This document shows positions 40,331 to 41,056 of a DNA stretch of 64,000 nt, piece by piece. The translations under genes were made by a program, and so were the position numbers. Position 1 is the stretch's first letter, and each line of letters opens with the position of its first letter. Where the stretch lies: contig OX596338.1 in assembly GCA_951394405.1 (NCBI GenBank), forward strand, positions 2,790,001 to 2,854,000, read 5' to 3'. The stretch is from Coprinellus micaceus. Its lineage: Eukaryota; Basidiomycota; Agaricomycetes; Agaricales; Psathyrellaceae. The notes beneath the pieces are model-generated. The model was not told where the DNA came from. It saw only the letters and a program-made list of their open reading frames with translations, and made no database searches.

Positions 40331-41056
40331 ATGGCTGACTGGGACAAGGAAGTTCGCATTGGATACAAGCGCACCACCCCCAAGGTCACCAAGAAGGACT
40401 CCGATGTCAATGGTGAGTAGCCTTTCCAATAGGTCTGGGTTGGTTCTGACCAATGCTATAGCTGTACGTCAGGATGGGCGCTGCAATATATCTCGTTCTC
40501 CCTCTAACCTGTCTTTCTGAAGGCTCGTCGTGCAGGCGCTGTCGTCGCTACCGACAAGAAGATCACCATTGGTTCCAACAAGGCCCATGTCGGTACGTCA
40601 CTTTACTGTCCTCGTCCCGTACACCCCGCTCAAGGTCTCTTGCAGGCACCGACCACCAGCGCATAGCCAAGCTCGACCGTGACAACGAAGTCGCCCCTCC
40701 CGCCAAGGTCGCGCCCTCCGTCGGTCGGGTGAGCAATTTCCTCGGGCTTACATCTTCCAGAACGTTCTCTGACATTCCGTTCACCCCCAGGCCATCCAAA
40801 CCGCCCGCATGGAGAAGCAGTTCTCGCAGAAGGACGTCGCCCAGAAGGTCAATGAGAAGCCTACTGTTATCCAGGACTACGAGTCTGGAAAGGCCATCCC
40901 CAATCCCCAGATCCTGGGCAAGCTCGAGCGGGTCCTCGGTGTCAAACTTCGTGGTGCGTATTGGCGCCAGCGATCTCTCTTATCATCGGCCACGTTCTGA
41001 TGTCATTCGCAGGGTCCGACATTGGGAAGAAGCTGGAGGGGCCCAAGAAGACCTAA
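40331..41056 (+). CDS. MBF1: Multiprotein bridging factor 1 (MBF1)
   Basis: A 147-residue coactivator and ribosome-associated quality-control factor. The N-terminal MBF1 domain starts MADWDKEVRIGYKRTTPKVT. The C-terminal Cro/C1-type helix-turn-helix covers about residues 80-135 (ARMEKQFSQKDVAQKVNEKP; VIQDYESGKAIPNPQILGKL). The C-terminus is GSDIGKKLEGPKKT. Six exons: 40331-40412, 40462-40463, 40523-40592, 40646-40728, 40791-40953 and 41013-41056, totalling 444 nt. The second exon is only two bases. It is needed to read N-AARRAGAVVATDKK across the junction, as in all MBF1 proteins. In fungi MBF1 bridges bZIP activators to TBP and prevents frameshifting on stalled ribosomes (family knowledge). 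Confidence 0.95.
40462..40463 (+). other. MBF1: 2-nt micro-exon of MBF1 (CT)
   Basis: It is flanked by a 49-nt intron (40413-40461; GTGAGT, CTGAC, TATAG) and a 59-nt intron (40464-40522; GTACGT, CTAAC, TGAAG). Exon 1 ends in AAT-G; adding CT gives GCT, and exon 3 continues GCTCGTCGT. Direct joining of exons 1 and 3 shifts the frame. Reading through the second intron meets a TGA. Confidence 0.75.

Follow-up and report, generated by a model that had tools for sequence, protein, structure and literature searches.

A two-nucleotide exon in the MBF1 gene of Coprinellus micaceus, very probably real and old in Agaricomycetes

In all probability, the MBF1 gene of Coprinellus micaceus has a genuine two-nucleotide exon, one of long standing in the Agaricomycetes. 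Within the window, which is the whole stretch of DNA analysed here (64,000 nucleotides), the gene occupies positions 40331–41056 of the plus strand, and its six exons encode a protein of 147 amino acids, with a spliced open reading frame of 444 nt including the stop codon (Table 1). The second exon consists of the letters CT. At the sequence level it is flanked on both sides by complete canonical introns, and it fits the definition of ultra-small microexons (<3 nt). We infer that CT is included in the mature mRNA. With high confidence, we read the pre-mRNA as carrying two ordinary short introns whose splice sites lie 2 nt apart, removed stepwise by intron definition, with CT completing Ala28 of the N-A-A-R-R motif in a probably ancestral arrangement.

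Table 1. Positions of the MBF1 exons and introns in the window, with the competing single intron
Feature	Position	Strand	Description
Exon 1	40331..40412	+	82 nt; MADWDKEVRIGYKRTTPKVTKKDSDVN plus first G of the Ala28 codon; ends AAT-G
Intron 1	40413..40461	+	49 nt, phase 1; donor GTGAGT, branch-like CTGAC, end TATAG
Microexon CT	40462..40463	+	2 nt; completes Ala28 (GCT); support from sequence, frame, shuffle test and comparison
Intron 2	40464..40522	+	59 nt, phase 0; donor GTACGT, branch-like CTAAC, end GAAG
Exon 3	40523..40592	+	70 nt; starts ARRAGAVVATDKK
Intron 3	40593..40645	+	53 nt, phase 1
Exon 4	40646..40728	+	83 nt
Intron 4	40729..40790	+	62 nt, phase 0
Exon 5	40791..40953	+	163 nt; most of the helix-turn-helix domain
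Intron 5	40954..41012	+	59 nt, phase 1
Exon 6 with stop	41013..41056	+	44 nt
Rival single intron	40413..40535	+	123 nt; gives NGAVV, the form of the annotated Coprinellus micaceus protein

The initial annotation had described the CT exon, the AAT-G end of exon 1 and the alanine at the start of exon 3, and all of these were present in the sequence; exon 3 opens at 40523 with GCTCGTCGT (GCT CGT CGT). The consensus donors, branch-like sites and acceptors of the two flanking introns, as well as their lengths, were confirmed from the letters. It had further stated that the frame is lost when CT is skipped or either intron is retained. Translation of the window letters agreed with this, as skipping CT shifted the frame and keeping intron 1 or intron 2 introduced a stop codon. 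In the six-exon reading, all MBF1 introns are 49–62 nt long. A recursive splice site of zero length would have AG directly followed by GT, whereas positions 40460–40465 read AG-CT-GT. At 40431–40434 in intron 1, AG is directly followed by GT (TAG/GTCTGG), which resembles a zero-length recursive site; it lies only 20 nt past the donor and is probably due to chance.

The microexon form scored 85.9 bits with PF08523, the MBF1 domain (cut-off 22.2), and 48.5 bits with HTH_3 (cut-off 23), so that it has the domain order of the MBF1/EDF1 family, with an MBF1 domain at the N terminus and a helix-turn-helix domain after it. The Mbf1 chain 9f9s_CN aligned over query residues 1–146, and alignment with yeast Mbf1 chains was free of gaps across VNAARRAGAVV. 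The top database match of the 147-residue protein was MBF1 of Coprinellus micaceus, with 95% identity. A single MBF1 locus was found in the genome (50.3 Mb, 17 contigs), with four exon matches, all at 40331–41056. The next gene downstream, on the minus strand at 41536–42561, encodes gamma-tubulin, 205 residues of which match the Tubulin gamma-1 chain (E 1e-99); the NCBIfam scan of this reading frame gave no match, nor did the Rfam scan of 39800–41600 at gathering scores.

To compare the possible splice solutions, we enumerated all combinations of one or two GT/GC-AG introns of at least 35 nt, with donors at 40380–40589, acceptors at 40400–40599 and the end of exon 3 fixed. The only enumerated combination that read NAARR was the one with the 2-nt exon; the others dropped conserved residues or added extra ones. 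Nine in-frame solutions used a single intron, one of which, the 123-nt intron at 40413–40535, used the strong donor GTGAGT and gave NGAVV without AARRA. The remaining eight used GTCACC or GTCAAT as the donor, and the mildest of these (40406–40522) lost only V26-N27-A28. The initial claim that MBF1 reads correctly only if CT is spliced has to be qualified, as it overlooked the 123-nt intron, which is in frame and starts at the same strong donor.

The 110-nt stretch was then subjected to 20,000 dinucleotide shuffles with its ends fixed, and a site was counted if it lay at least 40 nt from both ends. The pattern AG-NN-GTRNGT arose in 73 shuffles (0.37%), and 18 (0.09%) had a CN pair that makes alanine. 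When an upstream CTRAY branch was also required, 12 of the 20,000 shuffles remained for any NN and none for CN.

Relatives were compared through 170 distinct mushroom-type MBF1 proteins, the union of the best 120 of 886 and the best 120 of 1187 matches. Ninety-seven of them were genome-derived (ncbi/uniref/nr), and 73 had jgi, lgn or ena as their sole source, with listed contigs of 511–4165 nt. The latter are most likely spliced RNA, given that a six-exon gene was read whole off a short contig. By an alignment-based tally, the genome-derived proteins comprised 48 with NAARR, which says nothing on the presence of the microexon in their genes, 23 with NGARR and 21 whose length was changed. The remaining five (NEARR in Gautieria and Heterobasidion, NEALR, NAALR and IQARR) were excluded from the scars because NEARR occurs in other fungi. 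Among the short-contig proteins, 63 had NAARR, 5 NAARK, 4 NTARR and 1 NVARR, and none had a changed length. The difference between the two sets was significant both for NGARR (23/97 vs 0/73, p = 1e-6) and for changed length at the junction (21/97 vs 0/73, p = 5e-6). All 73 short-contig relatives, which are proteins of other species, have the unshortened motif for which the two bases are required.

Insertions and deletions between residues 11 and 137 were concentrated at the same place. Twenty-two of the 25 events in the genome-derived set fell at residues 27–34, and the other three at 46, 51 and 52; the short-contig set had four events, none of them at 27–34. The two insertions near residues 51–52, at the junction of exons 3 and 4, appear to belong to proteins P0136 (Clathrus columnatus) and P0101 (Fistulina hepatica) and are probably mis-set introns. 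A third set of 100 further proteins had no change of length at the junction, and its natural variants included NAAKR and NEARR. Most of its named members belonged to ascomycete yeasts; the others were a small number of further fungi and a single Agaricomycete (Dendrothele). As yeasts have few introns, this set shows that the length of the motif is not naturally variable, rather than that gene finders succeed elsewhere. An alignment of 16 of the 170 proteins was hand-picked and entirely NAARR, and the invariance of N-A-A-R-R in it is not evidence. No relative was found when viral contigs were scanned with the MBF1 protein and this alignment, or when contigs of prokaryote genomes were scanned with the alignment.

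The strongest competitor is the use of the 123-nt intron in the cell, yielding an MBF1 protein without AARRA. The spliced junction would then read AATGGCGCTGTC, versus AATGCTGCTCGT with the CT microexon. This intron is in frame, has the strong donor GTGAGT and the acceptor TGCAG, and exactly its NGAVV form is found in the published Coprinellus micaceus protein P0001 (142 aa) and in Trametes pubescens P0153. However, it deletes residues that all 73 short-contig proteins retain as N-x-A-R-R or NAARK, and it lowers the PF08523 score to 61.2 bits, a cost of 25 bits. The final 13 nt of the intron still code for A-R-R-A and the first base of the following glycine, as in the family, and its length is twice that of the other introns of the gene (53, 62 and 59 nt). 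Four other Trametes proteins retain ARR. This bypass is also the likely choice of any gene finder that imposes a minimum exon length. We therefore regard the 123-nt intron as a very unlikely explanation.

In another alternative there is no microexon, and exon 1 is extended by 2 nt before a non-canonical GA-AG intron, giving NGARR. This is the commonest odd form among the genome-derived proteins, and exon 1 of the window followed by GT, the first two bases of the intron, and the ARR exon does yield NGARR. But the form is absent from the 73 short-contig proteins, and the GA-AG reading requires a non-canonical donor. Six pairs of proteins were the same from residue 3 on except at the junction. 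AARR was opposed to GARR in P0070 (lgn) vs Rhodonia placenta P0089, P0074 (lgn) vs Postia placenta P0093, Dichomitus squalens P0126 vs P0128, P0129 (jgi) vs Tylopilus felleus P0132, and Mycena vitilis P0038 vs M. polygramma P0056, whereas P0018 (jgi, lgn) had AARR and Russula brevipes P0113 had GTSDIITARR. In four pairs one member was short-contig and the other genome-derived, and in two pairs both were genome-derived. Five of the six thus oppose a NAARR protein (three short-contig, two genome-derived) to an otherwise identical genome-derived NGARR protein, including the two from Dichomitus squalens, which counts against the GA-AG reading; we give it almost no credence.

The form of the altered junctions also favours the CT exon. 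Twelve of the length-changed scars were of the NG type, with the NGRR of Hysterangium excluded. The next residue fitted an RNG codon in 11 of these 12, a weak signal (p = 0.012), and the residue at the third place fitted a codon whose first base is T in 7 of them (p = 0.0006). Cysteine stood at the third place in 5 of 12, although it accounts for 0.09% of the residues in the first 120 proteins. The NA-V scars of Grifola, Galerina and Dentipellis fragilis had valine directly after NA in all three cases, as if the donor GT after a two-base exon had been translated. Two more scars, those of Coprinellus micaceus and Trametes pubescens, were the NGAVV bypass. Four of the 21 length-changed scars (Gyrodon, Hysterangium, Clathrus and Astraeus) fitted neither read-through of a donor nor the bypass. 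Read from the proteins, much of the additional sequence resembles splice donors that were translated, and 44 of the 97 genome-derived proteins (23 with NGARR and 21 of changed length) appear to be wrong at the junction.

An assembly error or a pseudogene, in which the loss of two exon bases created the apparent need for CT, has no support beyond its possibility; the rest of the MBF1 reading frame is intact, the locus is the sole one found in the genome and proteins from many genera are likewise disturbed at this junction, which makes this explanation hardly credible. Nor, in all likelihood, is the 110-nt stretch a spliceosomal twin intron of nested introns with no exon between them: it does have two adjoining introns in a fungus, and many twin introns are reported for Hypoxylaceae in excerpts of PMC9024468 and PMC12403724, but a twin intron leaves no exonic letters, whereas here two letters must stay for the frame and each intron is complete by itself.

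The two-exon solution had been drawn from frame and family. The 2-nt exon is supported by the frame together with its splice signals, by conservation in the family, by the transcript-like relatives and by the errors in gene models of other mushrooms at this junction. Intron definition would recognise each of the two introns, which would be taken out one at a time, with either of them first. The two sites would be too close for simultaneous engagement. The first removal would join CT to a normal neighbouring exon, so that nothing would have to span the 2-nt exon. With a donor, a branch-like site and an acceptor present in both introns, and lengths similar to those of the neighbouring introns, ordinary stepwise intron definition would suffice. 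A G precedes CT in either case, supplied by the upstream AG before the first splice and by the end of exon 1 after it, which leaves the second donor with an unchanged exon side. The arrangement has probably been kept because a conserved protein would lose its frame if CT were skipped or either intron retained. The initial annotation had held that such an exon cannot be recognised by exon definition and implies intron definition or recursive splicing. This agrees with the discussion in the available text of PMC4674806, where the authors propose intron definition and successive intron removal for the 1-nt APC11 exon, but it is a matter of interpretation and is unexceptional among introns of 49–62 nt.

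Exons of 1 nt have been published for APC11 in plants (PMC4674806), VPS55 in plants (PMC8831610) and CYP621A in Fusarium (PMC12940212), according to the excerpts of these papers. The CT exon had rightly been called near the physical minimum, but it is not the minimum. It joins a published class of ultra-small exons and, since 1-nt exons are known, is no size record. In the same excerpts, the exons of APC11 (Arabidopsis) and VPS55 likewise are ultra-small, restore the frame, are kept over a large clade and are absent from reference annotations; they differ in being 1 nt long, in plants, and backed by protoplast assays and RNA evidence, whereas the MBF1 exon is 2 nt long, in a mushroom, and inferred from comparison. 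The CYP621A exon, as excerpted, is also fungal, lies within a conserved motif, was found by a phase mismatch and has wrong gene models; it is a 1-nt exon of Ascomycota, backed by RNA reads and known from 20 orthologues within a single genus, whereas that of MBF1 comprises 2 nt in Basidiomycota and is drawn from sequence comparison in many genera. The P450 genes of Phanerochaete chrysosporium, an Agaricomycete, share very small exons and frequent introns of 45–55 bp, but the shortest exon given in the excerpt is 6 bp (PMC1184071). Fungal spliceosomal twin introns resemble MBF1 in having two adjoining introns that need removal one after the other, and differ in having no exonic letters left between them; the text of PMC5639578 available for this also mentions two 3-nt exons in a fungus. 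None of the literature matches listed described an MBF1 exon of 2 nt. Microexons are reportedly described in a 2025 paper in Cell Genomics on Coprinopsis cinerea. In PMC3990503, which contains both "microexon" and "Coprinopsis", the one passage concerned describes a read-mapping setting.

Disturbed proteins were found in Agaricales, Boletales, Russulales, Jaapiales, Geastrales and Hysterangiales, with one species looked up for each. Further genera with disturbed proteins belong to Polyporales, Gomphales and Phallales. The exon would accordingly predate the split of Phallomycetidae from the rest. Named proteins of Cantharellales, Auriculariales, Dacrymycetes and Tremellomycetes were not noticed among the matches listed. 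With the place and letters of the relatives' microexons read from proteins, the arrangement is probably ancestral to most Agaricomycetes. MBF1 is a factor that senses stalled ribosomes. A bolder scenario is unlikely: an exon present before Phallomycetidae, Russulales, Polyporales, Boletales and Agaricales diverged, and held since, would be exploited by the cell because errors in its splicing break the frame, with MBF1 output needing accurate stepwise splicing and mis-spliced forms being degraded, which would amount to splicing-dependent control of this factor.

The comparison of proteins suggests that the 2-nt exon is widespread in mushroom-forming fungi and often missed by annotation software. 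The MBF1 junction is a calibration case for gene finders, and it suggests a cheap search route, namely junctions at which genome-derived and transcript-like proteins disagree. The microexon also offers a test system for how the spliceosome handles sites 2 nt apart among short introns. If the comparative reading is true, mushroom-forming fungi have retained a 2-nt exon across their whole breadth, in a gene that is itself widely conserved.
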